The notes under the pieces are model-generated. The model was given only the letters and a program-made list of their open reading frames with translations, was not told where the DNA came from and did not search any database. DNA of 64,000 nt, from positions 1,612,001 through 1,676,000 of the forward strand of contig NZ_CP051515.1 in NCBI RefSeq assembly GCF_012689525.1, in the 5' to 3' direction. The translations under genes and the position numbers were made by a program. The first letter of the stretch is position 1. Every line of letters starts with the position of its first letter. The stretch is from Paraburkholderia aromaticivorans (GTDB lineage: Bacteria > Pseudomonadota > Gammaproteobacteria > Burkholderiales > Burkholderiaceae). This document shows, piece after piece, positions 33,790 through 55,500 of the stretch.

Positions 33790-33812
33790 CCTTCGATCAG
33801 GAATTGGACACC

Positions 33813-36100: not shown

Positions 36101-37019
36101 TATGCACTCGCCCATCGTCATTTTGTTGCTGTCGCTGTTCGCCGGAGCGATCCGCGTCAGCACGCCTTATCTGTTCGTCAGTCTCGGCGAGTGTCTGACC
36201 GAGAAGGGCGGACGCGTGAATCTCGGGCTGGAAGGCATTCTCGTGTCCGGCGCGATGAGCGGTTATGCGGGCGCCTTTTTGAGCGGCTCGCCGTGGATCG
36301 GCTTGCTCGCCGCCGGCGCGGTCGGCTTGCTGCTCGGCTGTCTGCACGGTCTTGTGTGCTCGTTGCCACGCGTGTCGGACATCGCCTTCGGCATTGCGTT
36401 GATGCTGCTCGGCACCGGACTCGCGTTCTATCTCGGCAAACCTTTTATCGAACCGCAAGCGCCGATGCTGCCGTTCATCGACCTCGGCGCATGGACTTCG
36501 TCGCCGCAACTGCATAACGCGCTGCATCTGAATCTGCTGTTCGTGATCGGCGTGGCGCTCGCCTTCGTTTTGCAATGGGGCTTGCGCAATACGCGCTGGG
36601 GCATGGTGCTGCGGCTCGTCGGCGATCACGCGGAAACGGCGCGTGCGATGGGCTATCCGCTCACGCGCGTTCGCATCGCCGCGACGGCAGTGGGCGGCGT
36701 GTTCGCGGGCGTCGGCGGCGCGTATCTGTCGCTGGTGTATCCGGGAAGCTGGAACGAAGGGCTTTCCAGCGGCCAGGGGCTGATGGCGGTCGCGCTGGTG
36801 ATCTTCGCGCGCTGGCAGCCGTTGCGCTGTTTGTGGGCCGCGTTGCTGTTCGGCGCTGCAGGCGCGCTCGGTCCGGCGTTGCAGGCGATCGGCGTGACGA
36901 GCGGCTACTACCTCTACAACGCCGCGCCGTATGTGCTGACGCTCGTGATCATGATCATCAATTGCCGTCCGGATCGCACGCTGGCGGGCGCGCCAGGCGA
37001 GCTGAGCCTGACTCGCTGA
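36093..37019 (+). CDS. ABC transporter permease, second subunit
   Basis: A 308-residue permease of the same class, with [21 protein letters not shown] near the N-terminus, the marker of the YufQ-like second subunit. It has about 8-9 hydrophobic helices. It starts inside the end of the first permease gene, with GGAG 7 bases upstream. The hydrolase gene begins about 60 bases after its stop, so all are likely co-transcribed. Confidence 0.9.
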
Positions 37020-37080
37020 GATGTTCGCGCCCATCCAGACTCTGCTGATTTTCATGAACCCAACCCAGGATATTCCGACC

Positions 37081-37773
37081 ATGACCCGATTCATCGAAGC
37101 GAGACCCTACCCGTGGCCCTACGACGGCGACCTGCGCCCGGACAACACCGCGCTCGTGATCATCGACATGCAGACGGATTTCTGCGGCCACGGCGGCTAT
37201 GTCGACAAGATGGGCTACGACCTCTCGCTCACGCGCGCGCCGATCGAGCCGATCCGACACGTGCTGAAAACGATGCGCGAGCAGGGCTTCACGATCATTC
37301 ACACGCGCGAAGGCCATCGTCCGGATCTCTCCGATCTGCCCGCCAACAAGCGCTGGCGCAGCCGTCGCGCGGGCACCAACGGTGTAGGTATCGGCGACGA
37401 CGGCCCGTGCGGCAAGATCCTCGTGCGGGGCGAACCGGGCTGGGACATCATCGACGAACTGAAGCCGCTCGCGGGCGAGATCGTCATCGACAAGCCGGGT
37501 AAAGGCTCGTTCTGCGCGACCGATCTTGAACTGATTCTGCGCACTCGCGGCATTGAGAATCTGATTCTGACCGGCATCACGACCGATGTCTGCGTGCACA
37601 CGACCCTACGCGAAGCCAACGACCGCGGTTTCGAATGCACGGTGCTGGCCGACTGCTGCGGCGCCACCGACAAAACCAATCACGACGCCGCCTTGCACAT
37701 GATCACGATGCAAGGCGGCGTGTTCGGCGCGGTGTCGGACTCCGGCGCGCTGTTGCAAACGCTAGGTGGATGA
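37081..37773 (+). CDS. biuH: Isochorismatase-like amidohydrolase, biuret amidohydrolase type
   Basis: A 230-residue cysteine hydrolase. The triad is Asp29 (I-D-M-Q), Lys138 (D-K-P-G-K-G-S) and Cys171 (T-T-D-V-C-V). P-Y-P-W-P-Y-D-G near the N-terminus, [10 protein letters not shown] and R-E-G-H-R-P-D-L match the biuret amidohydrolase branch closely. BiuH converts biuret to allophanate and ammonia. The allophanate hydrolase gene heads this operon, so the pair would give complete biuret breakdown. Ureidoacrylate and other cyclic or linear ureides are alternative substrates. Its stop overlaps an in-frame upstream ATG of the ATPase. Confidence 0.8.
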
Positions 37774-37775
37774 TC

Positions 37776-39386
37776 ATGTCGACCGTACGGCAAGCTCTCG
37801 GTGTTGAAGTGCTGAATGCGAGCAAGTCGTTTGGCGCGTTTCGCGCGCTGGACGGCGTCTCGATCAAGGTCAAGGCCGGCACGATTCACGCGTTGCTCGG
37901 CGAGAACGGCGCGGGCAAGAGTACGCTCGTGAAGGGCCTGGTCGGCTACGGCGTGCTCGACGACGGACAGATCGCCGCCGACGGCCGCGAAGTGCTCATC
38001 CACTCGCCGCGCGACGCGCAGGCGCTCGGCATCGGCATGGTGTATCAGCATTTCACGCTGGCCTCGGGCCTCTCCGTCGAAGAAAACCTGCTGCTCGCGC
38101 GCGGGCAGATGCCGTGGAAAATCGACTGGAAAGCGGAGCGCGCCGCGCTCATCGCATTCATGCAGCGCATGCCGTTCCGCTTGTCGCTCGATGCGCCGGT
38201 TGCGTCGCTCGCCGCGGGTGAAAAGCAGAAGCTCGAAATCCTCAAGCAGCTTTATCTGCAGCAGCGTTTCCTGATCCTCGACGAACCAACGTCCGTGCTG
38301 ACGCCGCAGGAAGCCGACGAAGTACTCGGCCTGATGCGCGACCTGACCACGCGCGGCGAACTGACCGTGCTGATGATCACGCACAAGTTCCGCGAAGTGA
38401 TGGCCTACGCGGACGACGTCACCGTGTTGCGCAAGGGACGCCAGGTCGGCACCAGTGCGGTGGCGAACACCAGCCGCGACGAACTCGCCGCGTGGATGAT
38501 GGGCACGGTGGCAACGAAGGACACACCTGTCATGGCTGCCGTGACGGAAGCGCGTGTTCAGCGCAAACCGCTCGACGAATCAGCTCAAGTGCGTCTCGCG
38601 CTGCACGACGTATCCGTGGAAGACGATCGCGGCCACACAGCAGTGAAGCACGCGACGCTGTCCGTGCGCGCGGGCGAAATTCTCGGGCTCGCGGGCGTTT
38701 CCGGCAACGGCCAGAAGGAACTGGTGGAAGCGCTGGTCGGCCAGCGCCGCGTGAAGACCGGCGACATGCAGGTGGCCGGCAAGCCATACCACGCGACGCG
38801 CGAGCAGATGACGCAACGGCGGGTCTTCGCGATCCCCGAAGAGCCGCTGAAAAACGCCTGCGTCGGCGCCATGAGCGTGGCGCAGAATCTCGCGCTGCGC
38901 GACTTCGATCGCGAGCCGTTGCGGCGCGGCGGCTGGTGGCTCGATCGCCGCGCCATGCGCGAGCGCGCCGCGCAGTTGATCGGCGAATTCAATGTGCGGC
39001 CGCCGGTACCCGAACGCGCGATCGGCACGCTGTCGGGCGGCAATGTGCAACGCGCCGTGCTCGCGCGCGAACTCGGGCAGCCGGTGGATGTGTTGATCGT
39101 CGCCAATCCCGTGTTCGGGCTCGACTTCGCGTCGGTGGCCGATATCCATGCGCGTCTGATGGCCGCGCGCGACGCGGGCGCGGCGGTGCTGCTGGTCAGC
39201 GAAGACCTCGACGAACTGCTCGAACTCGCGGACCGGATCATGGTGATCGCCGAGGGCGAACTGGTGTTCGAAACACCGGCGGCTCGCGCGGATCGCACCG
39301 TGCTCGGCCAGCATATGGCCGGCCACGGCGACACGCCGATGCAACCCGCCGCGCCGGCCGAAAAACTCAGGGAAGCCATCGGATGA
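37776..39386 (+). CDS. ABC transporter, double ATP-binding protein
   Basis: A 536-residue protein with two fused ABC domains, as in RbsA/YufO-type importers. Domain 1 has Walker [10 protein letters not shown] near residue 42 and Walker B L-I-L-D-E-P. Domain 2 has a degenerate Walker A (G-V-S-G-N-G-Q-K-E) and the signature L-S-G-G-N-V-Q. The start at 37776 follows AGGTGG by 6 bases. It powers the two permeases. Being flanked by two hydrolases indicates that import and hydrolysis of one compound class are coupled. Confidence 0.92.
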
Positions 39387-40078
39387 CATCGACCCACATA
39401 CAGACCATCGACGCCCAGCCTGGCCCATTCAGCTTCGACTCCGCAAAGACCGCCTTGGTCGTGATCGACATGCAGCGCGATTTCATCGAGCCGGGCGGCT
39501 TCGGCGAATCGCTCGGCAACGACGTCTCGCTGCTCGCGGACATCGTGCCGACGGTAGCCGCGTTGCTGGCCTTCGCGCGCAAGCACCACTGGTTCGTCGT
39601 GCATACGCGTGAATCGCACGCGGCGGATCTGTCCGACTGCCCGCCGGCCAAACGCCTGCGCGGTGCGCCGAATGCGCGCATCGGCGACGCCGGGCCGATG
39701 GGCCGCATCCTGGTTCGCGGCGAGCCCGGCAATGCGATCATCGAACCGCTCGCGCCGCTGGCCGGCGAACTCGTGATCGACAAACCCGGCAAAGGCGCGT
39801 TCTATGCGACCCGTCTCGGCGAGGAACTCGCGATACGTGGCGTCACGCATCTGGTGTTTGCCGGCGTGACCACCGAAGTGTGCGTGCAAACCTCGATGCG
39901 CGAAGCCAACGACCGCGGCTATGACAGCCTGCTGATCGAGGATGCCACCGCGAGCTATTTCCCCGCGTTCAAACAGGCCACGCTCGACATGGTGCGCTCG
40001 CAAGGCGGCATTGTCGGCTGGACCGCGCCACTTTCTTCGTTGATCGAAATCGACGAGACGACCCAAGCATGGAAGTAA
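39383..40078 (+). CDS. Second isochorismatase-like amidohydrolase (triuret hydrolase or guanylurea hydrolase candidate)
   Basis: A 231-residue cysteine hydrolase with triad Asp29 (I-D-M-Q), Lys134 (D-K-P-G-K-G-A) and Cys167 (T-T-E-V-C-V). It lacks the P-Y-P-W-P-Y start and the G-G-Y-V-D-K loop of the biuret-type neighbour, so the pocket should differ. Known pathways use two members of this family in series: triuret hydrolase then biuret hydrolase. Guanylurea hydrolase is also in this family. The gene overlaps the ATPase stop (ATGA) and the next gene by 10 bases. Which substrate applies here is inferred from context. Confidence 0.8.
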
Positions 40079-40464
40079 ATCAGCCCGAAATCGTGGCACA
40101 GGTCCACGCGGCGTTCATCGAATACGAGCGCGCGCTGGTCGACAACGACGTCGCGGCAATGAACGCGCTGTTCTGGCACACGACGGAAACGGTGCGCTAC
40201 GGCATCGCCGAAATCCAGCATGGTGGCGAGGCGATCCGCGCGTGGCGCGAACGCTGCGAGCCGGTGCCGAAATCGCGCAAGCTGCATCGAACCGTGGTGA
40301 CGACGTTCGGCACCGACTTCGCCACCGTCAGCACCGAATTCACCAGCGACGCCACGCCCTTGCTCGGCCGGCAGATGCAAACGTGGGCGCGGCTCAGTCC
40401 CGACGATGGCTGGAAAATCGTCGCTGCGCACGTGAGCCTGATCAATTCTCCGGCCAGCCCATGA
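40069..40464 (+). CDS. AtzH/HpxZ-like protein (DUF3225, SnoaL-like)
   Basis: A 131-residue NTF2/SnoaL-fold protein with [12 protein letters not shown] near residue 12, an [11 protein letters not shown] segment, and a C-terminal [10 protein letters not shown]. This matches DUF3225 proteins: HpxZ of oxalurate/purine breakdown and AtzH of cyanuric acid/biuret operons. The proposed role is hydrolysis or deamination of a carboxylated urea intermediate next to AtzF. It starts inside the upstream hydrolase gene (10-base overlap). Confidence 0.85.
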
Positions 40465-40499
40465 AACGCCGATAATAAGAAAAAAGGGACCTTGGCATC

Positions 40500-41231
40500 A
40501 TGAACGACGACCCGACGAATCTGCTGGAGACGCCTGCCGCGCCGGCTGCGGCCAACCCGCTTGCCGAGCAGGTGTATCAGCAACTCAAGACCGATATCTT
40601 CAGTTTTCGCCTGTTTCCCGGTGACCGTTTTTCGGAGAACGGCATTGCGCAACACTATGGCGTGTCACGCACGCCGATGCGCGACGGCCTGTTTCGTCTG
40701 CAACGCGAAGGCTACCTGGAAGTCGGATTCCGGCGCGGCTGGAAAGTGTCGCCGATCAACTTCGACCAGCTCGATCAGCTCTACGATTTGCGCATCGTGC
40801 TGGAAGTCGCGGCGGTGGAGCGGGTCGGCGCGGGCGGCGATACCGCGCATGCGGCCGTCGAGGCATTGAAGGCGATCTGGTGCGTCGCGCCCGAGTTGCG
40901 CGAGAGCGATCCGGTGAAAATGTTCGGCATGGACGAAAACTTTCACCGGCAACTCGTCGCCGCCACCGGCAACGCGGAAATGCTGCGCGTGCATAACGAA
41001 GTGACCGAGCGCATCCGCATCGTGCGGCGGCTCGATTTTCTGAAGCCGCACCGCACCAGCGCGACTTACGACGAGCATTCCACCATGCTCAACCTGATCG
41101 AACGCAACCGCCTGACCGAAGCGATCATTCTGCTGCGCGCGCATATCACGCAGAGCAAGCTGGAAGTGCGCAAGATCACGCTGTCGATGCTCGCCGCCGC
41201 GCGCGATAGCAAACTGCCGTTCGTGTCGTAA
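40500..41231 (+). CDS. GntR family regulator (FCD type)
   Basis: A 243-residue regulator with an N-terminal winged helix (residues 20-85; L-F-P-G-D-R-F-S-E-N and V-S-R-T-P-M-R-D-G-L) and a C-terminal FCD helical ligand domain (residues 95-225; F-H-R-Q-L-V-A-A-T-G-N and an E-H-S-T-M-L histidine). It is the last gene of the amidohydrolase-importer operon. It probably represses the operon until its substrate or a breakdown product binds. The inverted repeat at 31880-31913 is a candidate target. It converges on the mreB-type gene. Confidence 0.9.
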   Translation: MNDDPTNLLETPAAPAAANPLAEQVYQQLKTDIFSFRLFPGDRFSENGIAQHYGVSRTPMRDGLFRLQREGYLEVGFRRGWKVSPINFDQLDQLYDLRIVLEVAAVERVGAGGDTAHAAVEALKAIWCVAPELRESDPVKMFGMDENFHRQLVAATGNAEMLRVHNEVTERIRIVRRLDFLKPHRTSATYDEHSTMLNLIERNRLTEAIILLRAHITQSKLEVRKITLSMLAAARDSKLPFVS

Positions 41232-42462: not shown

Positions 42463-43530
42463 TTACTGCGCGTTGGCAAGCGCCGGATCGATATAGGCGC
42501 TCACGTTCTGCGACTGTTTGTACACGGCGTTGCGCACGTTGAACTTGTCGGCGTTCACGCTCGAACCGTACACGGAGTCCAGTCCGTCACCCTTGGTGAA
42601 GGCCTTTTTCGCGGCCGCGGCGTCGAGCAGGTGCGTGCCTTTCAGCAAGGGCAGGTACTGCGCCGGCGTGAGACCGACCCGCGCCGACATGATCTTGACG
42701 GCGTCCGGCTGCGTCTTCGGATCGTTGATATAGGCCACGCAGCGATACCAGACCTTGATCACCTTGGCCCAATCGGCCTTGCGCGATTGCAGGCTGACGG
42801 GATTGACCGTGATCGCGTCGTAGATCAGACCGGGGGCGTCGGCGGAGGTGAAGATCGGCCGCGAGCCCGGCACGCGCTTGAGCGCTTCGCCCGCGTTTGG
42901 TTGCCAGGCGCCGACCGCGGCGACGTCGCCGGACGAGGCGAGCACCTGCGGCAACTCGTTGGTCTTCGCATTGACGAGCGTGAGGTCCGATTCCTTCAGC
43001 GCATGTTTTTCGAGCGCCGTGTCGAGCAGCAGGTGATCGACGAGGCCCATTTCGACGCCGACCTTCTTGCCCTTCAATCCTTCCACCGTGCGTACCGGCG
43101 GCTTGGCGACGATCATGTCGTTGCCGCTGGAGTAGTCGGTGAGCAGGATCATCACGTTCTTCGCGCCGCTTGCGCCCGTCACGAGCGCGTCGCCGTTGGT
43201 CGCGCCGACCGCGTCGAGTTTGCCGGCGGAAAACGCATCGAGCGACGCGGAGTAGTCGAACCATTGGAAGTTGACGTCCACGCCGGCTTCCTTGAACCAG
43301 CCCTTCTCGATGGCGATCTGGAAAGCGACGAAGCCGGGCCAGTCGCTATAGCCGATGGCGAGCGGCGCGGCCGCAGCCTGCGCCGGGCTGGCGGCAGGAC
43401 CCGCGGCAAGACCGATTGTAAGGACGGCGGCTGCCGCCGCGAGCGCGCCGCGCACGCGCAGGGACGAGGCGAGGCGGGCAGGCGAGGTAAGGAAAGCAGG
43501 GGACCTACGAACGGATGCGAAACGTTTCAT
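42463..43530 (-). CDS. ABC binding protein (NMT1/TauA type) under a guanidine-I riboswitch
   Basis: A 355-residue solute-binding protein with a long Sec signal (residues 1-52, ending A-Q-A-A). The mature part begins [16 protein letters not shown], followed by [11 protein letters not shown] and L-T-D-Y-S-S-G, as in NMT1/SsuA-type proteins. GGAG lies 7 bases before the ATG. The leader has a guanidine-I riboswitch. Permease and ATPase of the matching class are encoded at 53555-55500 behind a second such riboswitch, so this should be the guanidine-binding subunit, located apart from its partners. Confidence 0.88.
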
Positions 43531-43563
43531 CGTTTTCTCCAGGAGACCGGTCAATTGCGATTG

Positions 43564-43629
43564 TTGAGTTGGATCGCGCGGCGACTGCGCGATGAAACAA
43601 CATGACCGGTACCCGCGAGAGAACCACAA
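43564..43629 (-). promoter_or_regulatory. Extended leader hairpin upstream of the binding-protein start
   Basis: On the minus strand ATCGCGC and GCGCGAT form the inner stem, with flanking complementary blocks (ACCGGTCA near 43604 and TGACCGGT near 43548) that extend it. The 3' block ends close to the GGAG of the gene. It is a candidate translational expression platform for the riboswitch; exact edges are approximate. Confidence 0.4.
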
Positions 43630-43691
43630 CGCGCGGAAACTGCGGGAGACAAACACCGGCCACGGAGAGGCACGATAGACATTGCTATCGC

Positions 43692-43830
43692 CAATCTCCC
43701 GGGCTTTTGTCCCGCCGTGTAGTGGGCTGGCGGTTCGTGCTTGCGATGAAACTCACAATCGAACCGGCCGGCGCACCGGGCTGCTCTCGGACCAGACATT
43801 CTCGCGAACCGGAACCCTAGCATCCCTAAG
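43692..43830 (-). promoter_or_regulatory. Guanidine-I riboswitch (ykkC class), copy 1
   Basis: Read on the minus strand, the conserved cores occur in order: CTAGGGTTCCGG, CTGGTCCGAGAG, then ACACGGCGGGACAAAAGCCCGGGAGA. These are the diagnostic segments of the guanidine-I class, which turns on export, breakdown or uptake genes when guanidine binds. It ends about 160 bases before the binding-protein start. The 3' GGGAGA (43700-43695) could alternatively pair with TCTCCC (43649-43644), a possible switch. Confidence 0.94.
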
Positions 43831-43938
43831 ATGCGACGCTGCCGCACCTCTCGGCAAGTTATCTAGCGAGAAATATGCCAGCGGGTTTCACTGCTCATGC
43901 CATACGGACGCTTCGACGCGAGCGCCGCGTAGTCGCCG

Positions 43939-44307
43939 TCAATCCAGCGCCGCGAACCGTTGATGCACATAGGCAAGAAACTGCTCCAGACGCTCCTCGA
44001 TCGACGCTGCGAGGCTCACCTGCTTGATGCGGCGATCCTCGGCGGAACTCGTCTCCAGCAGCCAGCCGCTGTCGATCAACTCCTGTACGTACCGCACGGC
44101 GGTGCGGCGGCTCACGCCCGGCATGAATTCGTAGAGCGCGGTCTTGGCGAAGTAGTCGTCCTGATCCACCCACATGCGGCAGAACAGATCGCTGTAGTTC
44201 AGGTCGTTCAGGCCGAGATCGCCGAAATGCGCGGACCACTGCCAGTCCATGTCGAGAATGGCGCGCGCGACGGCTTGCCCCTTGGTACGCGCAATTTTCT
44301 TCTTCAT
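43939..44307 (-). CDS. Small winged-helix regulator (MarR/TrmB-like)
   Basis: A 122-residue basic protein. Residues 55-105 form a winged helix: F-M-P-G-V-S-R-R-T-A-V-R-Y-V-Q-E-L, then D-S-G-W-L and E-D-R-R-I-K. The N-terminal part is a helix-rich dimerisation segment. The ATG at 44307 is the best start. It is divergent from the TIM-barrel and dioxygenase genes and lies upstream of the riboswitch-controlled binding-protein gene on the same strand. It probably controls the divergent pair. The exact family is uncertain. Confidence 0.72.
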   Translation of the reverse strand: MKKKIARTKGQAVARAILDMDWQWSAHFGDLGLNDLNYSDLFCRMWVDQDDYFAKTALYEFMPGVSRRTAVRYVQELIDSGWLLETSSAEDRRIKQVSLAASIEERLEQFLAYVHQRFAALD

Positions 44308-44404
44308 CGATTCACCACGAGGAGGAGGGCTGCACAGTTTAAGTGCTAATTGAGCCGAAAATCGGGCGCGCAAAAATAACGCGCGACCCCGTATGGATAG
44401 TTTA

Positions 44405-44453
44405 TTGACTCGTGCTTTTACTGTGTAATATTGCATGCAATTTTGCATGTAAA
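44405..44453 (+). promoter_or_regulatory. Promoter and palindromic operator candidate
   Basis: A TTGACT (44405-44410) and a TAATAT (44426-44431) with a 15-base gap resemble -35 and -10 boxes. The palindrome TTGCATGCAA (44431-44440) and a second TTTTGCATGTAA half directly follow. A repressor bound there would block transcription of the downstream genes. Confidence 0.45.
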
Positions 44454-44463
44454 TGGAGAGGCA

Positions 44464-45384
44464 ATGAAATTCGAATTGTTCAAGACGTTCTGGGGCTTCG
44501 ACGGCGGTCCTCGCGATGCGGCGCCACTCGTGCGGGCGGCCGGCTTCGATGGCATCGAAGCGCCGGTGCCGGCCGGCGGCGCGGCGCGCGACGCGTTTGC
44601 GCAGGCCATTGCCGACGAAGGCCTGGGTTTCATCGCGGAGATCACGACGGCCGGCAGCTATGTGCCGGAGCGCTCGGCGACGCCGGCCGATCATCTGCGG
44701 GACTTCGAGGAGAAGATCGTCTGGGGCAAGCCGCTCGAACCGCGCTTCTTCAACGTGATGGCCGGCTGCGACGCGTGGCCGGCCGCGACCCAGGTGGACT
44801 TCTTCGCGCGCGCGGTGGAGATCGCCGCGAAGCACGACGTGATCTGCAGCTTCGAAACCCATCGCGGGCGCTCGTTCTACAACCCGTGGATCACTCGCGA
44901 CGTCGCGCGCGCCGTGCCCGCGCTCAAGCTGACCTGCGACTTCAGCCATTGGGTGTCGGTGTGCGAGCGGCTGCTCGACAGCGAGTGGGACACGATCCTC
45001 GAACTGGCGCCGCATGCGCATCATCTGCATGGACGTGTCGGCTATCCGCAAGGTCCGCAGGTGCCGCATCCGGCCGCGCCCGAGTACGCGGACTGCCTCG
45101 CCTCGCATCAGCGGATCTGGGAGGCGCTGTGGACCGCGCAGATCGAGCAGGGCTACACCGTCACGACAATGACGCCGGAGTTCGGCCCCGACGGCTATCT
45201 TCACACGCTGCCGTTTACGAACGCGCCGGTGGCCGATCTGTGGGAGATCAATACGTGGATGGGGCGCGAGGAACGGCGCCATCTGGCGGCGTTTCTTGCC
45301 GACCGCGAAGGTCGCGGCGGGCGACAAGAGCAAATGCAAACGCAAACGCAAACGCAATCGCAGACCATCGCGCAGCTTGTCTAG
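44464..45384 (+). CDS. TIM-barrel isomerase/endonuclease-IV-like protein
   Basis: A 306-residue protein of the AP-endonuclease-2 TIM-barrel superfamily. Metal ligands are visible as Glu in S-F-E-T-H-R-G, Asp in C-D-F-S-H-W, His in H-L-H-G-R-V-G-Y and Glu in T-P-E-F-G-P-D. Relatives are sugar isomerases or epimerases, and this type often stands with dioxygenases in catabolic operons. The C-terminus carries a hexanucleotide repeat coding for Gln-Thr units (45336-45353). The start has GGAGAGG upstream. It is directly followed by the dioxygenase gene. Confidence 0.78.
   Translation: MKFELFKTFWGFDGGPRDAAPLVRAAGFDGIEAPVPAGGAARDAFAQAIADEGLGFIAEITTAGSYVPERSATPADHLRDFEEKIVWGKPLEPRFFNVMAGCDAWPAATQVDFFARAVEIAAKHDVICSFETHRGRSFYNPWITRDVARAVPALKLTCDFSHWVSVCERLLDSEWDTILELAPHAHHLHGRVGYPQGPQVPHPAAPEYADCLASHQRIWEALWTAQIEQGYTVTTMTPEFGPDGYLHTLPFTNAPVADLWEINTWMGREERRHLAAFLADREGRGGRQEQMQTQTQTQSQTIAQLV
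45336..45359 (+). repeat. Short GCAAAC tandem repeat in coding sequence
   Basis: Three exact GCAAAC units and a partial one (GCAATC) encode alternating Thr-Gln near the C-terminus of the TIM-barrel protein. Copy number could vary without breaking the frame. Confidence 0.7.
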
Positions 45385-45393
45385 GCACCTCTC

Positions 45394-46437
45394 ATGAACC
45401 AAACCCATACGAGCTTTCAGCAACTACCCATCGTCGACGTCAGCGGCCTGTTCAGCGATGACGGCGCCCAGCGCCTCGCAACCGCGCGCGAACTCGATCG
45501 CGCGGCACGCGAGGCCGGCTTCTTCTATGTCACCGGCCACCAGGTGTCGCGCGCGCAGCAAAGCGCATTGATCGAGCAAGCCAAACGCTTCTTCGCAGCC
45601 GAACACGAATGGAAGATGCGCTACTACATCGGCAAGTCGATGGCGCATCGCGGCTATGTGCCCGAAGGCGAGGAAGTTTTCGCGGGCGGCAAGCGCGACA
45701 GGAAGGAAGCCTTCGACACCGGCCGCGAACTGCCCGCCGACGACCCCGAGGTGAGCGCCGGCACGCCGATGCTCGGCCCGAATAGCTGGCCGGAACAAGC
45801 GGGCTTTCGCGAAGCGGTGGGCGGGTACTACGAAGCGGCGTTCGAACTCGGCCGCGCCTTGTTTCGCGGCTTCTCACTCGCGCTCGGCCTGCCTGAACAG
45901 CACTTCGACCCGTATCTGCGCAAGCCGCCGAGCCAATTGCGCCTGATCCACTATCCGCTCGATCCGTCGGCGGAAGACCGGCCTGGCATCGGCGCGCATA
46001 CCGACTACGAGTGCTTCACGATCCTGCTGCCGACCGCGCCCGGACTCGAAGTGATGAACGGCGAGGGCGAGTGGATCGATGCGCCACCGGTCGAGAACGC
46101 GTTCGTCGTGAACATCGGCGACATGCTGGAAGTGTGGACGGGCGGAACCTACGTCGCGACGTCGCATCGCGTGCGCAAGGTGAGGGAGGAGCGCTACTCG
46201 TTTCCGCTCTTTTTCGCCTGCGACTATCACACGGTCGTCGCACCGCTGCCGCAGTTCGCGACGCCCGAGGCGGTGGCGAAATACCCGCCCGTGTCGGCGG
46301 GCGACCATCTGTTCGCGCAGACGGCGCAGAGCTTCACTTACCTGAAGGAACGTCTCGAACGAGGAGAACTACTGTTGCCCGATGGTTCGAAAGCGTTGGC
46401 AAGCTTCGGTCAACAGGCGCGCTATGCGAGCACGTAA
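45394..46437 (+). CDS. 2-oxoglutarate/Fe(II) dioxygenase, isopenicillin N synthase family
   Basis: A 347-residue non-haem iron oxygenase. The iron ligands are His202 and Asp204 (A-H-T-D-Y-E) and His258 (T-S-H-R-V), with Arg267 and Ser269 (R-Y-S) for 2-oxoglutarate. All are intact. The family includes ethylene-forming enzymes and plant hydroxylases that release guanidine from arginine or homoarginine. The gene sits between two guanidine-I-riboswitch transcripts, so a guanidino compound is a plausible substrate; this is inference. It forms a pair with the TIM-barrel gene just upstream. Confidence 0.88.
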   Translation: MNQTHTSFQQLPIVDVSGLFSDDGAQRLATARELDRAAREAGFFYVTGHQVSRAQQSALIEQAKRFFAAEHEWKMRYYIGKSMAHRGYVPEGEEVFAGGKRDRKEAFDTGRELPADDPEVSAGTPMLGPNSWPEQAGFREAVGGYYEAAFELGRALFRGFSLALGLPEQHFDPYLRKPPSQLRLIHYPLDPSAEDRPGIGAHTDYECFTILLPTAPGLEVMNGEGEWIDAPPVENAFVVNIGDMLEVWTGGTYVATSHRVRKVREERYSFPLFFACDYHTVVAPLPQFATPEAVAKYPPVSAGDHLFAQTAQSFTYLKERLERGELLLPDGSKALASFGQQARYAST

Positions 46438-46915
46438 CTGGATGCCCAAGCCTGAGAGAGAACGCGTTGAGGCCGCATAGCAGAGCTTCGACGCGCAGCC
46501 TCACGACAACAACGCCGCTCTGACTACGAGCGGCGCTGTTGCTTTTGCAACTCGATGAAACGTGCCGACATCAAGGTGTAAAGCGCGCGTCGAATAGCGG
46601 CAAGCGTCGGCATGGTCGTGTGATAAAGGGAGTGGACGTGGCGCATTGATACGCACACACCATGCCATCGCTCGGAGCCCTATCTGGCGTCACGCGGACG
46701 CGCGTCGAGCCCAATCGTGGTGCCCGGCGCATCCAACTGGTGCGGATTCACCAACGGCGCTGGTGCGTGAACGATCGGCCCACACATACCTACCGGCCAC
46801 GCGCATCGCATCCAATCCCTTGCCACACCGCACTCGCCGCATCCTTATCACAACGCTGGCACACAACTCGCTTAGCTACGCAGCGAGAGGTGCGAAGTAA
46901 TTTGCATCATCTTCA
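46438..46915. other. Intergenic region, no gene seen
   Basis: About 480 bases lie between the dioxygenase stop and the riboswitch. Apart from the terminator-like hairpin near its start, no gene or repeat stands out. The promoter of the guanidine operon should be in the last 100 bases before 46916. Confidence 0.5.
46513..46550 (+). terminator. Terminator after the dioxygenase gene
   Basis: An 8-base GC stem (CGCCGCTC 46513-46520 with GAGCGGCG 46528-46535) with a 7-base loop is followed by CTGTTGCTTTT. This is a plausible intrinsic terminator for the TIM-barrel/dioxygenase transcript. Confidence 0.6.
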
Positions 46916-47045
46916 GGATCGCTAGGGTTCCGGTCGTACGCTTTCATGCGCACGATGCCTGGTCCGAGAGCAATCCGGTCTTGCCGCCCACCTTCTTTCA
47001 AGGCGCCGGCGAGGCTCCACGGAGGGATAAAAGCCCGGGAGGTCG
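46916..47045 (+). promoter_or_regulatory. Guanidine-I riboswitch (ykkC class), copy 2
   Basis: The conserved segments appear in order: CTAGGGTTCCGG (46922-46933), CTGGTCCGAGAG (46959-46970), then CACGGAGGGATAAAAGCCCGGGAGG (about 47018-47042). The aptamer ends about 55 bases before the first gene of the operon. GGAGG at 47038-47042 can pair with CCTCC at 47096-47100, just before the start codon, so a translational switch is possible. This element marks the downstream genes as guanidine-responsive. Confidence 0.95.
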
Positions 47046-47100
47046 CGATGTCGGTCAATCGCCCTCTCATGCTTATTCCCAACCGATACCTGGAGCCTCC

Positions 47101-47856
47101 ATGTCGACGCAATCCTCTGTCGATCTCGCACCGATCCCGCATGTGGCGTGGGAAACGGTGATTCCCGCCGGTACGCACTGGTCCGGCGTGCTGCGCCGTG
47201 GCATGGCGTTGCGCGTCGTCGATAGTGAAGGCGGCGCGAATCTGGCCGCCGTGTTCTACCGGCACGACGAACCGCTCGAACGCTACAACATGGCCGATAC
47301 GCTGAAGGCGCAGCACACCGCGCATCTGACGCGCGGCCACGTGCTCTACTCGGACATGGGCCGCGTGCTGGCCTCGATCACCGCCGACACGCTCGGCTGG
47401 CATGATCCGCTCGGCGGCGTCGGCGACGCGGAACTGTTCGCGGCGAAATACGGCGTGGCCCGCTATCAACAGCATCGCAATTCGATGATCCGCAACGGCC
47501 GCGACAGCCTGCTGCTCGAACTGGCGAAGCACGGTCTCGGCACACGCGACCTCGTCGCCAACCTCAACTTCTTCAGCAAACTCGCGATCGGCGACGACGG
47601 CGCGCTCGACTTCGTGGCAGGCCATTCGCCGGCCGGCGCCGCGTTCGATCTGCGCTTCGAAATGGACACGCTCGCCGTGTTTTCGAGCGCGCCGCATCCG
47701 CTCGACCCTTCCTCCGAATACGAACCGAAGCCCGTCAAGCTGATCGCGTACCGCGCGTATGCGGCCGACGCCTGCGTACCGGCCGACGATCCCTGCCGCT
47801 CGGCGTGCCCGGAGAACGGGCGCGGCTTCGTCAACACCGACCGTCTGTTCGTTTAA
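47101..47856 (+). CDS. DUF1989 protein, carboxyguanidine deiminase subunit (UAAP1-type)
   Basis: A 251-residue DUF1989 protein, historically named urea carboxylase-associated protein. It has [20 protein letters not shown], and a closing C-x-x-x-x-P-E-N-G-R-G-F. Two such subunits together form carboxyguanidine deiminase (CgdAB), which converts carboxyguanidine to allophanate and ammonia. GGAG lies 5 bases before the ATG. It is the first gene after the riboswitch. Which subunit letter applies I cannot tell from sequence alone. Confidence 0.88.
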
Positions 47857-47867
47857 GGAGACCCGCG

Positions 47868-48524
47868 ATGCCTATCATCGAAAGCAAACTCGATCACCGT
47901 CATGCGGTCTACGACCTCACGCTGCCATCCGGCGAACCGTGGCTGCATGAAGTCAAACGCGGCCAGGTGTTCCGCATTCTCGACCTCGAAGGTAATCAGG
48001 CCGTCGACACGCTGTTCTACAACAGCGCCGATCCGCTCGAACGCTATAGCGCGCAGGACACGATCCGCGCGCAACGCAATCTCTACCTGTCCGCCGGCAG
48101 CGTGTTGATGTCGAACCTCGGCAAGCCGATGCTGAGCATCGTCGCCGACACTTGCGGCCGCCACGACACGCTCGGCGGTGCTTGCGCCGCCGAGAGCAAT
48201 ACGGTGCGTTACGCGCTCGACAAGCGTCATATGCATAGCTGCCGCGACAGCTTCCTGCATGCGATCACGCATTGCACGTGCGGCGTGGGCACGCAGCTCG
48301 GCAAGCGCGACATCGTCAGCAACATCAACTTCTTCATGAACGTGCCGGTGACGGCGCTCGGCCAACTGACTTTCGAGGACGGCATCTCCGCGCCGGGCAA
48401 ATACGTCGAGATGCGCGCCGAGATGGATGTCACGGTGCTGATTTCGAATTGCCCGCAGTTGAACAATCCGTGCAACGGCTACAACCCGACGCCCGTGCGA
48501 CTGACGATATGGGACGCCCAATGA
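47868..48524 (+). CDS. DUF1989 protein, second carboxyguanidine deiminase subunit (UAAP2-type)
   Basis: A 218-residue paralogue of the upstream protein, with [23 protein letters not shown] and N-I-N-F-F-M-N. It contains more Cys and His residues (H-S-C-R-D-S, T-H-C-T-C-G), consistent with the metal- or catalysis-bearing subunit. AAGGAG lies 7 bases before the ATG. Its stop overlaps the carboxylase start (ATGA), so the subunits and the carboxylase are coupled. Confidence 0.88.
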
Positions 48525-51500
48525 GATTCCAAAAAGTCCTCATTGCCAATCGCGGCGAGATTGCTTGCCGTGTGATTCGCACGCTCAAGCGGCTCGGCAT
48601 TGCGTCGGTCGCGGTGTATTCCGAAGCCGATCGCCACGCCATGCATGTGATGCTCGCCGACGAAGCCGTGTGCATCGGCCCGGCGCTCGCGGCACAGAGC
48701 TATCTGAACAGCGCGGCGATTCTCGAAGCGGCGCGCGCGTGCGGCGCCGACGCCGTGCATCCCGGCTACGGTTTTTTGTCCGAAAACGCGGCCTTCGCGC
48801 AGGCTTGCGACGACGCCGGAATTCGCTTCATCGGCCCGACGCCGCTACAGATGCGCGAGTTCGGCCTGAAGCATACGGCGCGCGAACTCGCGCAAGCCAA
48901 CGACGTCGCCTTGCTGCCCGGCACCGGCTTGTTGCCTGACGTAAGCGCGGCACTGCGCGAGGCGGCGTCGATCGGCTATCCCGTGATGCTAAAAAGCACG
49001 GCGGGCGGCGGCGGGATCGGCATGTCGCTGTGCCGCGACGCCGCGCAACTGGAAAGCGTGTTTGCGTCGGTCGCACGGCTCGGCGAGGCGAACTTTGCCA
49101 ACGCGGGTGTGTACGTCGAAAAGTTCGTCGAAAACGCGCGCCATATCGAAGTGCAGATTTTCGGCGATGGCAAAGGCGGCGTGATATCGCTCGGCGAACG
49201 CGATTGCTCGGTGCAGCGGCGCAACCAGAAGGTGATCGAGGAGACGCCCGCGCCTGGGCTTACGAACGCGGAACGCAGCGCGCTGCATGCGAGCGCCGTG
49301 CGTCTCGCCCAGGCGGTGAAGTACAAATCCGCGGGTACGGTAGAGTTCGTTTTCGATGCCGACACGCGCCGTTTCTATTTCCTCGAAGTGAACACGCGAT
49401 TGCAGGTCGAGCATTGCGTGACGGAAGAAGTCACGGGTATCGATCTGGTCGAGTGGATGGTCCGCGAGGCCGAAGGCGAACTCGCGCCGCTCGATACGCT
49501 GGCGCCCGTGCCGCAAGGCGCGAGCATCCAGGTGCGGCTGTACGCGGAAGACCCGCACAAGCAGTTTCAGCCGAGTGCGGGCCTGCTGACGCATGTCGCG
49601 TTCGCCGCCGACGCGCGGGTCGAGACGTGGGTCGATTCCGGCACGGAAGTCAGCGCGTTCTACGATCCGTTGCTCGCCAAGCTGATCGTCAAAGGCGCGA
49701 CGCGCGAGGCCGCGCTCGCTGCGCTGCGTGCCGCACTGGAACAAACGCAGTTGTACGGCATCGAGACCAACCTCGACTATCTGCGCGCCATTGCCGGGTC
49801 GGCGACGTTTGCGCGCGCTGAGCAGACCACCGCGTTCCTCGGGCGCTTCATGTTCGCGCCGCATACCATCGACGTGCTTGACGGCGGCGTGCAGACCACC
49901 GTGCAGCAGACGCCAGGGCGCACGGGCTACTGGGACATCGGCGTGCCGCCGTCGGGCCCGATGGACGATCTGTCGTTCCGACTCGCCAACGAACTGCTCG
50001 GCAATCCCGCCGACGCCGCGGGCCTCGAATGCGCGATGGTCGGCGCCACGCTGCGCTTCAACACCGCGACGCTTTTCGTGCTGGGCGGCGCGCCGCTCGC
50101 CGCCACGCTCGACGGCGCACCGCTCACGTTGTGGCAAGTCACGCGCGCGCCGGCGGGTTCGGTGCTCAAGCTCTGCGGCGTGACGGGCGCCGGCATGCGC
50201 GCGTGTCTCGCGTTGAAGGGCGGCTTGCAAGTGCCGGACTATCTGGGCAGCAAGGCGACCTTCACGCTCGGCCAGTTCGGCGGCCACGCGGGGCGCGCAT
50301 TGCGCAAGGGCGACGTGCTGCATCTCGCCGACGGCGCGGGCTCGGGCGAAGCGGGGGCGCAACTGGACGCGGCGCGTGTGCCGGTCCTGACGCACGACTG
50401 GGCGCTCGGCGTGCTCGACGGCCCGCACGGCGCGCCCGATTTCTTCACGCCCGACGACATCGCGATGCTCTACGGCACGCGCTGGACCGTGCACTACAAC
50501 TCCAGCCGCACGGGCGTGCGGCTGATCGGCCCGAAGCCGCAATGGGCGCGCACGGACGGCGGCGAGGCGGGGCTGCATCCGTCGAACATTCACGACAACG
50601 CGTACGCGGTCGGTGCAGTGGATTTCACCGGCGATATGCCCGTAATTCTCGGCCCTGACGGTCCGAGCCTCGGCGGTTTCGTGTGTCCGGTCACGGTGGT
50701 GGGCGAAGAGTTATGGAAGCTCGGCCAACTGCGTCCGGGCGATACGGTGCGCTTCGAACGGGTGCCGGTCAAAGCGGTGCAACGCTCGCCGCTCGCCAGC
50801 GAAGCGGCCCACGATTGCATCCTCTATCGCGACCCGACAGCAGGCGAGGGCACCGGCGTGGTCTATCGCCGTTCCGGCGATCAGAACGTGCTGATCGAAT
50901 ACGGTCCGCTCGTGCTCGACCTGAACCTGCGCTTTCGCGTGCATGCATTGATGCACTGGCTCGACGCGCACCGGTTGCCGGGCATCATCGATCTGACGCC
51001 GGGCATCCGTTCATTGCAGGTGCATTTCGATCACCGCATGCTGTCGCACGACACCTTGCTCGCCCATCTGCAGCAAGCCGAGCGCGAACTGCCCGCCGTG
51101 GACGCGATGCGCGTGCCGAACCGCATCGTGCATCTGCCGCTCTCGTGGGACGACCCGTCGACGCGAATCGCGATCGAGCGCTACATGCAATCCGTGCGTC
51201 CCGACGCGCCGTGGTGCCCGAGCAATATCGAGTTCATTCGCCGCATCAACGGGCTGAATAGCATCGACGACGTGAAGCGCATCGTGTTCGACGCGCGCTA
51301 CCTCGTCATGGGTCTCGGCGACGTCTATCTCGGCGCGCCGGTCGCGACGCCGCTCGATCCGCGTCACCGGCTCGTCACCACCAAGTACAACCCGGCGCGC
51401 ACGTGGACGCCGGAGAACGCGGTAGGCATCGGCGGCGCGTATCTGTGCGTGTACGGCATGGAGGGGCCGGGCGGCTATCAGTTCGTCGGCCGTACCGTGC

Positions 51501-52117
51501 AGATGTGGAACCGCTATCGCACGACGCGCGAGTTCGAGGCGGGCAAGCCCTGGCTGCTGCGCTTCTTCGATGAGATCCGTTTCTACGAAGTCAGCGAGGC
51601 CGAGCTGGCCGAACTGCGCACGGATTTCATCGCGGGCCGCGCGAGTCTGAAGATCGAGGAGTCCGTGTTCGACCTGGGTGCGTATAACCGCTTCCTGAAG
51701 GACGAAGCCGACTCGATCGCCACCTTCAAAAGTACGCAGCAAGCTGCTTTCGACGCGGAACGCGAGCGCTGGGATGCGGCTGGACATGCTGAATACGTCG
51801 GCGAAACGGATGGCGATGCAGCCACTGCCGGCAACCTGGCGAACGACGCGCTGGCGGCCGGCCAGCAAGGCATTGTCGCCGACGTGTCGGGCAGCGTGTG
51901 GAAGCTGCTCGTCAAGGAAGGCGAACGGGTCGGCGACGGGCAGGTGCTCGCGATCGTCGAGTCGATGAAGATGGAAATTTCCGTCACCGCGAGCGGCGAC
52001 GGCGTCATCGAAACGATCGACTGCGCGGAAGGCGCGGCGGTCGTCGCAGGTCAACGATTGATGGTGATGCGCGCCGGCGTTGCAGCCGACGCCACCGAGG
52101 AGGTTACGTGCAAATGA
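48521..52117 (+). CDS. Biotin-dependent guanidine carboxylase (urea carboxylase family)
   Basis: A 1198-residue multidomain enzyme. Residues 1-445 are biotin carboxylase ([13 protein letters not shown]-grasp [10 protein letters not shown]). Residues 465-1000 are the two KipA/KipI-like carboxyltransferase parts. Residues 1115-1198 are the biotin carrier with Lys1150 in S-M-K-M. The family includes urea carboxylase and guanidine carboxylase. The riboswitch and the DUF1989 partners favour guanidine: ATP-dependent carboxylation to carboxyguanidine. The specificity residue was not checked by alignment. Confidence 0.88.
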
Positions 52118-53568
52118 AATCCCACGACGATCTGTTCCAGTCCATGTCGATTGCCGCGCTGCGGGCGCGCTATCGCGCCGGCAGCCTCACGCCGGCGCAA
52201 CTGGTGGAAGCCATCGCCGCGCGCACGTCGGGCGACGATCCGCACCACGCATGGATCCGCCCATTGAGCCGCAACGAGATGATGCGTTACGCCGATGCGC
52301 TCGAAGGCCGGGACATGGACACCTTGCCGCTCTACGGCGTGCCGTTCGCCATCAAGGACAACATCGACCTGGCCGGCATTCCGACCACCGCCGCCTGTCC
52401 CGCCTATGCGTACACGCCGACGGCCAGCGCGCCGGTGGTCGCGCGCCTGATCGCCGCCGGCGCGATCCCGGTCGGCAAGACCAATCTCGACCAGTTCGCC
52501 ACGGGTTTGTCCGGCCAGCGTTCGCCGCACGGTGCGTGCCGCAACGCGCTCGATCCGCGCTACGCGTCGGGCGGATCGAGTTCTGGTTCGGCGGTATCGG
52601 TCGCGCTCGGGCTGGCGGCGTTTTCGCTGGGCACCGACACGGCAGGATCGGGACGCGTGCCCGCTGCATTCCACGGCCTGTTCGGACTGAAGCCGACCAA
52701 GGGCGTGCTGAGCACGCTCGGCGTGGTGCCGGCGTGCAAATCGCTCGACTGCGTGTCGATCTTCGCGCGCTCGGTGGACGACGCGCAGAGCGTGTTCGAT
52801 GCCGCGCGCGGCGTGGCGCCGAGTGATCCTTATGCGCGCGAATTCCAGCCGCCGCCGGGTGCCGCGCAGCTTGGCGCGCAACCGTCGCTGCGCGGTGTGC
52901 GCTTCGGCGTGCCGCGCGCGAACCAGCTCGAATTTTTCGGCGACACTTCGTACGCGCACGCTTTCGATGCCTCGCTCACGCGTTTGCGCGCAGCCGGCGC
53001 CGAACTGGTCGAGATCGACTTCGAGCCGTTCCTTGCCACCGCGCGGCTGCTTTACGAAGGGCCGTGGGTGGCGGAGCGGCTCGCGGCGATCCGCGAGTTC
53101 GTGGAGACGCAGCCCGACGCGCTGCATCCGGTGATCCGCGAGATCATCGGCGGCGCGGCGCGCTGGAGCGCGGCCGATGCGTTCGCCGCGTTCGACCGCC
53201 TCGCGTTGCTGCGCATGCAGGCGGCGCAAGTCTGGCAGCGGATCGACGCCATCGTCACGCCGACGTCGGCGACGACCGCCACCGTCGACGAACTGGAAGC
53301 GGACCCGATCCGCGTGAATTCGCGCTTCGGCTACTACACGAACTTCGTCAACCTGCTCGATCTGGCCGCGCTGGCGGTGCCGGCCGGCGTCTGCACGGTC
53401 GGCAAACATGCGGGCTTGCCGTTCGGCGTGACCTTCGTCGCGCGCGCGCATGAAGACATCGTGCTGCTCGATCTGGCGCGCGCGTGGCTCGACGAAACGA
53501 CCGCCGCTTCAGGGTCCGCACACGGCGCAAGCGCATTCAGCCTCGGAGAATCACATGGCAGTCATTGA
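52114..53568 (+). CDS. atzF: Allophanate hydrolase, amidase domain only
   Basis: A 484-residue amidase-signature protein with Lys81 (A-I-K-D-N), Ser155 in G-G-S-S-S-G-S and nucleophile Ser179 (T-A-G-S-G-R). Full-length AtzF has about 600 residues; this copy ends after the amidase domain, lacking the C-terminal domain present in the gene at 31924. The first reaction, allophanate to N-carboxycarbamate and ammonia, should still occur, and the product may decay unaided. GAGGAGG is 10 bases upstream; GTG 52108 is an alternative start. It overlaps the permease start by 14 bases. Confidence 0.9.
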
Positions 53569-54526
53569 CAGAACCGAATGGTTCGCGGTGCGCCGCGAAC
53601 TCTCCGTCCGCGGTAAATGGCTGTTGGGCGCGGGCTCGTTCCTGTTGCCGCTCTTCGTCTGGTGCCTGGTCAGCTACGTGCCGTTCATCTGGCATCCGCA
53701 GGTGCTGATCGAGAGTCCGGGCAGCGTCGACTATTTCCAGCCGGGCATGCGTGTCGACAAGGACGTGTTCGCCGACGAACTCGCCCACGCGCGCGATGCC
53801 CATGCGGCGTTGCCGGCCGGCGAACCGGTCAACCCGGTCTATCTGCCCGCGCCCCATGAAGTGCTGCGCGCGTTCTACACCGCGTTCACCACGCCGCCCG
53901 CATCGCGCGACGGCGTATGGCTGCATCAGAGCCTGTGGCACAGCATTCAGGTGATCTTCTGGGGCTTCGTGCTGTCGTCCGTGATCGGTGTGCCGATCGG
54001 CATCGTGTGCGGCACGTACAGCGCGATCGCGCGCTTGCAGGAGCCGTTCTTCGAGTTCTTCCGCTACTTGCCGGCGCCCGCGTTCGGCGCGCTGATGGTG
54101 GCGATCCTGGGCATTTACGACGGCCCGAAGATCGCGATCATCGTGATCGGCACATTGTTCCAGCAGGTGCTGATCGTGGCCAACACCACCCGCAAGCTCG
54201 AGTACAGCCTGTTCGAAGCCGCCATGACGCTCGGCACGAAGAAGTTCAAGCTGCTCACCCATGTGGTGATTCCCGGCATCCTGCCGGACCTGTACCGCGA
54301 CCAGCGCATTCTGCTCGGCTGGGCATGGACGTATCTGATCGTGGCGGAACTGGTGGGCACCAGCTCCGGCATCACCTGGTACATCACGCAGCAGGCGCGC
54401 TACCAGCATTTCGACAACGTCTACGCGGCAATCATGATGATCGGCATCATCGGCCTGGGCACCGATCTCGTGCTGGCCTTTCTCGGCCGCAAGCTGTTTC
54501 CGTGGGACCGCACGCTCAAGACGTAG
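53555..54526 (+). CDS. ABC transporter permease (nitrate/sulfonate/taurine type)
   Basis: A 323-residue inner-membrane permease. It has an N-terminal helix, a long polar periplasmic insertion (residues 45-110) and then about five helices with the coupling loop [12 protein letters not shown]. The T-L-G motif and the G-I-L-P-D-L-Y segment fit the SsuC/TauC class. It is in the guanidine riboswitch operon with the ATPase. The matching binding protein is the gene at 42463, so together they form a guanidine importer. Confidence 0.9.
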
Positions 54527-54585
54527 CGGACGGCTTCGTGACACGGCTTATCGCATGCACCGCACCGCATTCAAAGGATTCCATC

Positions 54586-55500
54586 ATGTTAAATCCGCAA
54601 CCCGTTCCGTCGTACCTGATCCAGTCCGAAGCGGTACGCGAGCGTTTCGACCGTCTGAAGTCGCGCGAAGTGATTCTGGAGGTACGCGACCTCGGCAAGC
54701 GCTTCGAGACGCCCCAAGGCGAGTGCACGGCGCTCGACGGCATCAGCTTCAAGACGCACCGGCGCGAGTTCGTCTGCGTGATCGGACCGTCGGGCTGCGG
54801 CAAGTCCACGCTGATCCGCATTCTTGCCGGCCTGGAGGCGCAGACGAGCGGCAGCGTGCTGCTCGACGGCAAACCGGTGCGGGGCCCGGGTGCTGACCGC
54901 GGCATGGTGTTTCAGGGCTACACGCTGTTTCCGTGGCTGACGGTCAAGAAAAATGTCATGTTCGGTCTCAAGATGAACGGCCACAGCACCCTGCATGCGG
55001 AACGCGAGGCGCTGCAATGGCTCGATCTGGTCGGTCTGACGAAATTCGCCAACGCCTATCCGCATCAGTTGTCGGGCGGCATGAAGCAGCGCGTGGCGAT
55101 TGCCCGCGCACTCGCCAACCGGCCGCGCATTCTGCTGATGGACGAACCCTTCGGCGCGCTCGACGCGCAAACGCGCGCGAAGATGCAAGCGCACCTGCTC
55201 GATATCTGGCGCAACATCGACGTGACTGTGCTGTTCATCACGCACGATCTGGACGAGGCGATCTTTCTCGCCGACCGCATTCTGGTGCTGAAGGCGAATC
55301 CCGGCGAGGTGCAGGAGTTGATCGAAGTGCCGGTGCCTCGGCCGCGCGATTACTCGCAGGTCACGTCGCCGGAGTTTCTGGCGACCAAGGCGCGGCTGGA
55401 AGCCTTGATCCATCCGCCCACAGAGACCCGTGACGACGAGGACGACGTCGTCAAACCGCACATGATCCGTATGACCGATGTAGCGGACAACGTCGAATAG
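54586..55500 (+). CDS. ABC transporter ATP-binding protein (nitrate/sulfonate/taurine type)
   Basis: A 304-residue ATPase: Walker [10 protein letters not shown] near residue 69, Q-loop V-F-Q-G-Y, signature L-S-G-G-M-K-Q-R, Walker B I-L-L-M-D-E-P, H-loop I-T-H-D. The extra N-terminal 28 residues and acidic C-terminal tail are unusual for the class. It follows the permease after about 60 bases and ends the guanidine operon. It drives uptake by the permease at 53555. Confidence 0.92.

Follow-up and report, generated by a model that had tools for sequence, protein, structure and literature searches.

What reaction is served by three genes that lie between two opposing guanidine riboswitches, downstream of neither? 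The question is raised by a 64,000 nt stretch of DNA from Paraburkholderia aromaticivorans (NZ_CP051515.1, assembly GCF_012689525.1, positions 1,612,001–1,676,000), here called the window, whose own positions serve as coordinates below. A first-pass annotation of this DNA had described a locus for guanidine uptake and breakdown. The route it named is right, and already published, but the account was incomplete in that it omitted the three genes between the switches, which form a conserved cassette. The cassette encodes a small putative regulator, a TIM-barrel protein of the AP_endonuc_2 family and a 2-oxoglutarate (2OG)/Fe(II) dioxygenase that is orthologous to the methylguanidine hydroxylase MgdH (Table 1). 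On balance, we favour the view that this locus would degrade methylguanidine as well as guanidine, with the TIM-barrel protein doing the work that falls to MgdL in Vreelandella and with a repressor of its own.

Relationship of the dioxygenase to methylguanidine hydroxylase

MgdH of Vreelandella boliviensis was characterised as a methylguanidine hydroxylase in 2025 (PMC12508155). The dioxygenase of the window matches it at 209 of 341 residues (61%) without gaps, with a BLASTP score of 433 bits, which makes a strong case for orthology. Seven such dioxygenases were aligned and used as the query to collect relatives, each species being represented by a single genome, and the best 80 of at least 572 confirmed loci are considered here. 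At the V. boliviensis LC1 locus (L130) the order is guanidine-I aptamer, substrate-binding protein, ATPase, cgdA, cgdB, guanidine-II aptamer, gca, dioxygenase, a further gene and atzF; the permease was not matched there by the query used. Because this locus is the operon of PMC12508155, and because the further gene carries Asp49 and Arg51, the two residues named for MgdL (D49 and R51) in that source, we identify its dioxygenase as MgdH. Expanded operons of the mgd type are placed in Vreelandella and Salinisphaera by the same paper, whose main text, in a term search, makes no mention of Burkholderia or Paraburkholderia.

Orthology would predict 2OG-dependent oxidation of methylguanidine by the window enzyme. 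A second clade of dioxygenases (in Pseudomonas, Acetobacter and some Paraburkholderia) is also paired with the TIM-barrel protein and occurs without gca. Its substrate could differ, because some of its loci carry a transporter of the Lys/Arg type and a guanidinobutyrase-like enzyme. In an alignment of 38 dioxygenases, 21 rows linked to MgdL were set against 10 from the second clade, five of which have a guanidinobutyrase nearby; the other seven rows comprise five of the window's own group and two that are partnerless. At 14 positions the two sets are separated, each being at least 80% conserved. At 12 of these the window dioxygenase agrees with the MgdL group, at one (I210) with the second clade and at one (G250) with neither. 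Trees place both the dioxygenase and the TIM-barrel protein of the window outside the second clade, and together these results favour methylguanidine as the substrate.

One locus with a guanidinobutyrase-like enzyme, L076 (8568–15057), was scanned and has the TIM-barrel gene, the dioxygenase, an ABC (ATP-binding cassette) transporter of the polar amino-acid type and the guanidinobutyrase-like enzyme together. L075, L077, L088, L142, L169, L178 and L193 are grouped with it, the transporter in L075 and L077 being assigned by layout only. An assignment of the window dioxygenase as an ethylene-forming enzyme was dropped, as most chains so named in the PDB score about 70–77 bits against it (phmmer). 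One such chain, 9ovh_A, reaches 227 bits, on a phmmer scale that differs from that of the BLASTP score for MgdH.

The gene that accompanies the dioxygenase

Partner genes were sought with two MgdL queries from Halomonadaceae and two TIM-barrel queries over the fetched loci, within 3 kb of the dioxygenase and at E 0.01 and E 1e-8 respectively. Among 113 dioxygenase loci of at least 55% identity, duplicates included, a TIM-barrel gene was found at 71, an MgdL gene at 38, neither at four and both at none; with duplicates removed, the 96 distinct loci divide into 54, 38, four and none. At one partnerless locus (L120), inspection shows a divergent MgdL-like open reading frame that matches no Pfam family, and another (L158) is a contig of 4.4 kb. 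No MgdL homologue was found in the genome of the window at E 0.001, with a query that does match three of six other genomes (G136, G057 and V. boliviensis). The two partners have different affiliations: no Pfam family is matched by MgdL at E 0.1, whereas the TIM-barrel protein belongs to PF01261 (39.3 bits; cut-off 31.1).

By its position, and by exclusion, the TIM-barrel protein would be a second N-(hydroxymethyl)guanidine lyase, unrelated to MgdL. Its predicted structure has alternating strands and helices and a mean confidence (predicted local distance difference test, pLDDT) of 92.6. Nine residues (E131, T132, H133, R134, D159, S161, H162, E239 and F240) are invariant across 34 aligned sequences. 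Metal sites composed of Glu, Asp, His and Glu are usual in the AP_endonuc_2 TIM fold, and E131, D159, H162 and E239 resemble such ligands. Lyase chemistry in this fold would not be unprecedented, as the enzyme of a study on enzymatic β-elimination reportedly has a TIM fold.

An MgdL-like gene also occurs in a different setting in Jiella (L117, 8642–14549), where a guanidine-I aptamer is found with genes for a binding protein, an MgdH-like protein, an MgdL-like protein (34%), an ATPase and a ureohydrolase. The ureohydrolase scores 533.8 bits against 7esr/7oi1, deposited as probable agmatinase 2, which we take to be the cyanobacterial guanidinase. If so, demethylation is joined there to the guanidinase route.

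A possible second oxygenase with the same partners

The TIM-barrel protein was also sought across the class, in 369 sampled genomes, eight of which have matches at E 1e-60, the window's genome included. In five of the seven others (L187 and L189–L192), all gammaproteobacterial, the gene lies within 2 kb of one for a fatty-acid-desaturase-like protein. L188, a contig of only 4 kb, shows a window-like binding protein and the TIM-barrel gene and no desaturase in view, and L193 is a guanidinobutyrase–TIM–dioxygenase locus. The five cassettes share the TIM-barrel family with the window and differ from it in that the desaturase-like protein replaces the 2OG dioxygenase. L187, L190, L191 and L192, but not L189, have a binding protein 58–65% like that of the window, and cgdA, cgdB and gca are present in L187 and L192. 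A guanidine-II aptamer precedes three of the cassettes; in V. boliviensis, methylguanidine is a ligand of this class. The aptamer ends 8 bases (L190) and 16 bases (L192) upstream of the desaturase-like gene, and the gap is similar in L189, subject to an uncertain start codon.

Within the genus, six genomes (L079, at 6705–12337, and L091, L095, L097, L215 and L216) have operons that combine a guanidine-I aptamer with genes for an NMT1 binding protein, a desaturase-like protein, a creatininase-family protein, an MgdL-like protein, a permease and an ATPase, and with no match to the 2OG dioxygenase. Altogether 16 desaturase-like loci were compared, 10 from the class sample and six from the genus. 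The TIM-barrel gene is present at five, an MgdL-like gene at eight, neither at three (L211, L213 and L214) and both at none. Seven of the eight MgdL-like proteins are 29–38% identical to the better of the Halomonadaceae MgdL queries and that of L210 is 26% identical; the copy of L212 lies almost 5 kb away. Each partner thus occurs with each oxygenase, as interchangeable second-step enzymes would give, and all four combinations are seen in or near guanidine loci.

Two other genes were noted in the TIM/desaturase loci L192 (9965–12122) and L191 (9766–11947). One is a distant creatininase-family gene, 22–26% identical to that of L079, and the other encodes a type III glutamine synthetase, recognised in L192 by a profile scan and in L191 by eye.

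Conservation and probable control of the cassette

Guanidine-I aptamers are present in 100 of 144 genomes of the genus, and in 31 of the 144 two of them form a divergent pair within a single contig. Twenty-seven of these pairs enclose the cassette and three are bare (L047, L052 and L060, the last at a contig end); the remaining one is L080, in which the switches are 12 kb apart. Of 28 genomes in the genus with a dioxygenase of at least 72% identity, 27 have the regulator–TIM–dioxygenase cassette between two divergent switches. The layout in Paraburkholderia xenovorans LB400 (L100) is the same as in the window. Some other genomes of the genus (L078 and L082–L084) have a single switch before genes in the order cgdAB, gca, atzF, binding protein, permease and ATPase. 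Since the split layout recurs across the genus, the divided importer is a shared trait and not a curiosity of the window.

In V. boliviensis the guanidine-II aptamer binds methylguanidine, and the guanidine-I aptamer does not in the range tested (PMC12508155). If the switches of the window behave as the Vreelandella guanidine-I switch does, this would account for a cassette with its own regulator. A candidate operator, the palindrome TTGCATGCAA, lies before the TIM-barrel gene, in the spacer that separates it from the divergent regulator gene. The window holds a single exact copy, and 12 bases further on comes another with one mismatch. Matches with one mismatch are at the level of chance in the window (three, with 2.2 expected). 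Among 32 distinct regulator–TIM spacers, the window being counted through L179, TTGCATGCAA is exact in 22 and TTGCATGCA is present in 25, and the distance from this core to the TIM start is that of the window in 19. A cassette found elsewhere, in L074 (genome G079, 9411–11906), keeps the operator-like sequence TTGCATGCAC. A promoter-like match at 44405–44432 ends at the palindrome, and the counts of promoter-like matches (one, with 0.7 expected) and of terminator-like matches (five, with 3.6 expected) in the scanned stretch are both near chance. The regulator is probably an autoregulating repressor that acts at the TTGCATGCAA candidate sites.

Proposed pathway and alternatives

In the pathway that we propose, guanidine and probably methylguanidine too would be imported, and both would be converted to ammonia and CO2. 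The dioxygenase would hydroxylate the methyl group of methylguanidine with 2OG, O2 and Fe(II) to yield the slowly decaying hemiaminal N-(hydroxymethyl)guanidine; the m/z 90 intermediate has a half-life of more than 1 h (PMC12508155). The TIM-barrel protein would then split this compound into guanidine and formaldehyde, the role of the unrelated MgdL in Vreelandella. Guanidine would bind both riboswitches, giving more importer and more of the Gca–CgdAB–AtzF route, and the regulator would probably repress from the sites before the TIM-barrel gene.

The V. boliviensis gca operon with MgdH and MgdL (PMC12508155) shares with the window the orthologous dioxygenase, the Gca pathway, an ABC importer and guanidine-I control. 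The window differs in having the TIM-barrel protein for MgdL and in dividing its importer over two divergently oriented switches. Moreover, the V. boliviensis genes lie inside the operon, after gca and behind an internal guanidine-II aptamer, whereas the cassette of the window stands separate with its own regulator. The methylguanidine part of the locus is a variant of the system published in 2025, for which we did not find the partner enzyme, the regulation or the host group described. A survey of the open-access literature, with most subscription papers outside its scope, yielded one methylguanidine-demethylating system, in halophiles (PMC12508155), and no link of the TIM-barrel or desaturase-like family to methylguanidine. 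Orthology would extend the activity to Paraburkholderia and other soil bacteria, and the TIM-barrel protein is a candidate, open to testing, for a second family of lyases with this unusual chemistry.

A wider reading, which we put forward tentatively and which may well prove wrong, is that methylguanidine demethylation is a mix-and-match process. Two unrelated oxygenases (MgdH and the desaturase-like protein) would combine with two unrelated lyases (MgdL and the TIM-barrel protein, a new family of hemiaminal lyases), and in Paraburkholderia the cassette would contribute a repressor that senses methylguanidine, upstream of RNAs that sense guanidine. The loci also point to methylated guanidines as natural substrates, common enough for two oxygenases and two enzymes of the second step to have been recruited to loci under riboswitch control.

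Several observations weigh against assigning methylguanidine demethylation to the cassette as we do. The weakest MgdL assignments are only about 25–28% identical to the queries, and the partner rows are not independent, as the dioxygenase tree needs only two changes of partner. TIM-linked rows were joined in none of 200 bootstrap trees, yet the approximately unbiased (AU) test does not reject their forming one clade (p-AU 0.33, with the partnerless rows and the outgroup omitted). A first AU test had rejected one TIM clade (p 0.0007), but it included the partnerless L152, which is nested in a TIM group, and a claim about the number of TIM origins was dropped. TIM–dioxygenase pairs with neither gca nor GbuA found nearby occur at most Acetobacter and several Pseudomonas loci, and the role of the TIM-barrel protein may be broader than methylguanidine. 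L080 has other genes between its switches, and a TIM-barrel gene but no dioxygenase found at this locus; around the complete cassette of L074, no match to a guanidine gene was seen over about 8 kb. The regulator matches no family above its cut-off.

These points leave room for other explanations. It is conceivable, though we consider it unlikely, that the dioxygenase is a methylguanidine hydroxylase and the TIM-barrel protein handles formaldehyde or another by-product, the hemiaminal decaying spontaneously or through another enzyme. We found no AP_endonuc_2 protein with this hemiaminal-lyase activity in a search of the open-access literature, and a profile of the TIM alignment matched no solved structure at E 1e-4, both of which would suit such a role; however, there is no reason why a formaldehyde enzyme should exclude MgdL, and the TIM-barrel protein and MgdL do not overlap at any of the 96 dioxygenase or 16 desaturase-like loci. 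We give less credence to the idea that both enzymes act on a larger guanidino compound, for example 4-guanidinobutyrate or a methylated relative. TIM–dioxygenase pairs do lie near a guanidinobutyrase-like enzyme in L076 and the loci grouped with it, and the L076 enzyme scores 645.6 bits against PDB 3nio, but the residues at the separating positions and the placement of both window proteins outside the second clade argue for methylguanidine. Finally, the three genes could be an unrelated insertion between the divergent operons of an ordinary guanidine locus, as the bare pairs, the widely spaced pair of L080 and the displaced cassette of L074 might suggest. That is very improbable given how regularly the cassette is kept between the switches, and its relatives lie inside gca operons of other families, one of them being the assayed MgdH.

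The riboswitches and the guanidine genes

The guanidine half of the locus is an established, published pathway, and here the first-pass annotation held up well. It had placed two opposing guanidine-I aptamers with all conserved cores, and the covariance model indeed matches both leaders over their full length, with the cores present and scores above the gathering score of 63. The genes that it had put behind each aptamer, a binding protein behind one and the two DUF1989 proteins, carboxylase, allophanate hydrolase, permease and ATPase behind the other, were confirmed in their limits and families. An importer divided over two transcripts and serving guanidine breakdown is likewise what the riboswitches, the gene families and Asp701 of the carboxylase indicate. 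No further guanidine-I aptamer was found in the 10.8 Mb genome, and the window has no above-threshold match to guanidine-II. Predicted hairpins built from the 3′ ends of both aptamers fit the expectation for ON switches; the fold energies of both leaders (z about -1.3) are not significant alone, and arms similar to those of the aptamer 1 hairpin are present in relatives, as judged by inspection.

Table 1. Features of the guanidine locus and its inner cassette (window positions; aa, amino acids).
Feature	Position	Strand	Basis
NMT1-family substrate-binding protein of the ABC importer, 355 aa, behind aptamer 1	42463–43530	-	Family profiles
Predicted hairpin, candidate expression platform, overlaps 3′ end of aptamer 1	43643–43701	-	z -1.26, weak alone
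Guanidine-I riboswitch aptamer 1	43694–43831	-	Rfam RF00442, 70.4 bits, E 1.8e-10
Small cassette regulator, 122 aa, weakly MarR/winged-helix-like	43939–44307	-	HTH_36/MarR_2 under cut-off; SlyA/MarR E 0.3–0.5
Candidate operator, palindrome TTGCATGCAA, starts 33 bases before TIM gene	44431–44452	+	Conserved spacer site
TIM-barrel protein of the AP_endonuc_2 (xylose-isomerase-like) family, 306 aa; N-(hydroxymethyl)guanidine lyase (proposed)	44464–45384	+	PF01261
2OG/Fe(II) dioxygenase and MgdH orthologue, 347 aa; methylguanidine hydroxylase (proposed)	45394–46437	+	61% identity to MgdH
Guanidine-I riboswitch aptamer 2	46911–47043	+	Rfam RF00442, 74.5 bits, E 2.1e-11
Predicted hairpin, candidate expression platform, overlaps 3′ end of aptamer 2	47031–47074	+	z -1.31
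Carboxyguanidine deiminase subunit, UAAP1, DUF1989 (cgdA/cgdB pair)	47101–47856	+	TIGR03425, 350.8 bits, cut-off 206
Carboxyguanidine deiminase subunit, UAAP2, DUF1989 (cgdA/cgdB pair)	47868–48524	+	TIGR03424, 350.5 bits, cut-off 285
Guanidine carboxylase Gca, 1198 aa	48521–52117	+	TIGR02712, 1827 bits, cut-off 1304; Asp701
Allophanate hydrolase AtzF, 484 aa, without C-terminal AH_C domain	52114–53568	+	Family profiles
ABC permease	53555–54526	+	Family profiles
ABC ATPase	54586–55500	+	Family profiles

Gca has the architecture of the urea carboxylase family. Its Asp701 aligns with an Asn of the Kluyveromyces lactis urea amidolyase chain, in a column (Asn1330 of that enzyme) that we take to be the position by which the two kinds of carboxylase are told apart. 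The fetched loci gave 78 matched carboxylase stretches, duplicates included, and every one has Asp in this column. At the substrate position guanidine carboxylases have Asp and urea carboxylases Asn (PMC12186494), and a reading of Gca as a urea carboxylase was dropped on account of this Asp. The binding protein has as its best NCBIfam match TIGR03427 (putative urea ABC substrate-binding protein), at 138 bits under a cut-off of 334. The enterobacterial and other guanidine carboxylase operons reviewed in PMC12186494 share cgdA, cgdB, gca, atzF, an importer and guanidine-I control with the window, which differs from them in its binding protein on a separate transcript, in the added methylguanidine cassette and in the guanidine-II result above.

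Some minor observations concern AtzF and the flanking DNA. Among 38 close relatives of the AtzF of the guanidine operon (a set that keeps duplicates and omits rows close to locus ends), the AH_C domain that it lacks follows in 18 and is absent in 20. In nine genomes of the genus with divergent switches, no atzF was seen in the operon; each has one AtzF (51–52% identity), which in all nine lies at most 20 kb from the switches. Adjoining the guanidine locus, at 31924–41231, is a biuret-type cluster with a full-length AtzF that includes AH_C, two BPD_transp_2 permeases, a GntR regulator, the biuret amidohydrolase BiuH (410.7 bits against a cut-off of 370), a BiuH-like paralogue under that cut-off and a protein that Pfam names AtzH-like and NCBIfam names HpxZ. 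Elsewhere in the window, a glycine riboswitch aptamer lies on the minus strand at 14180–14087 (68.7 bits).

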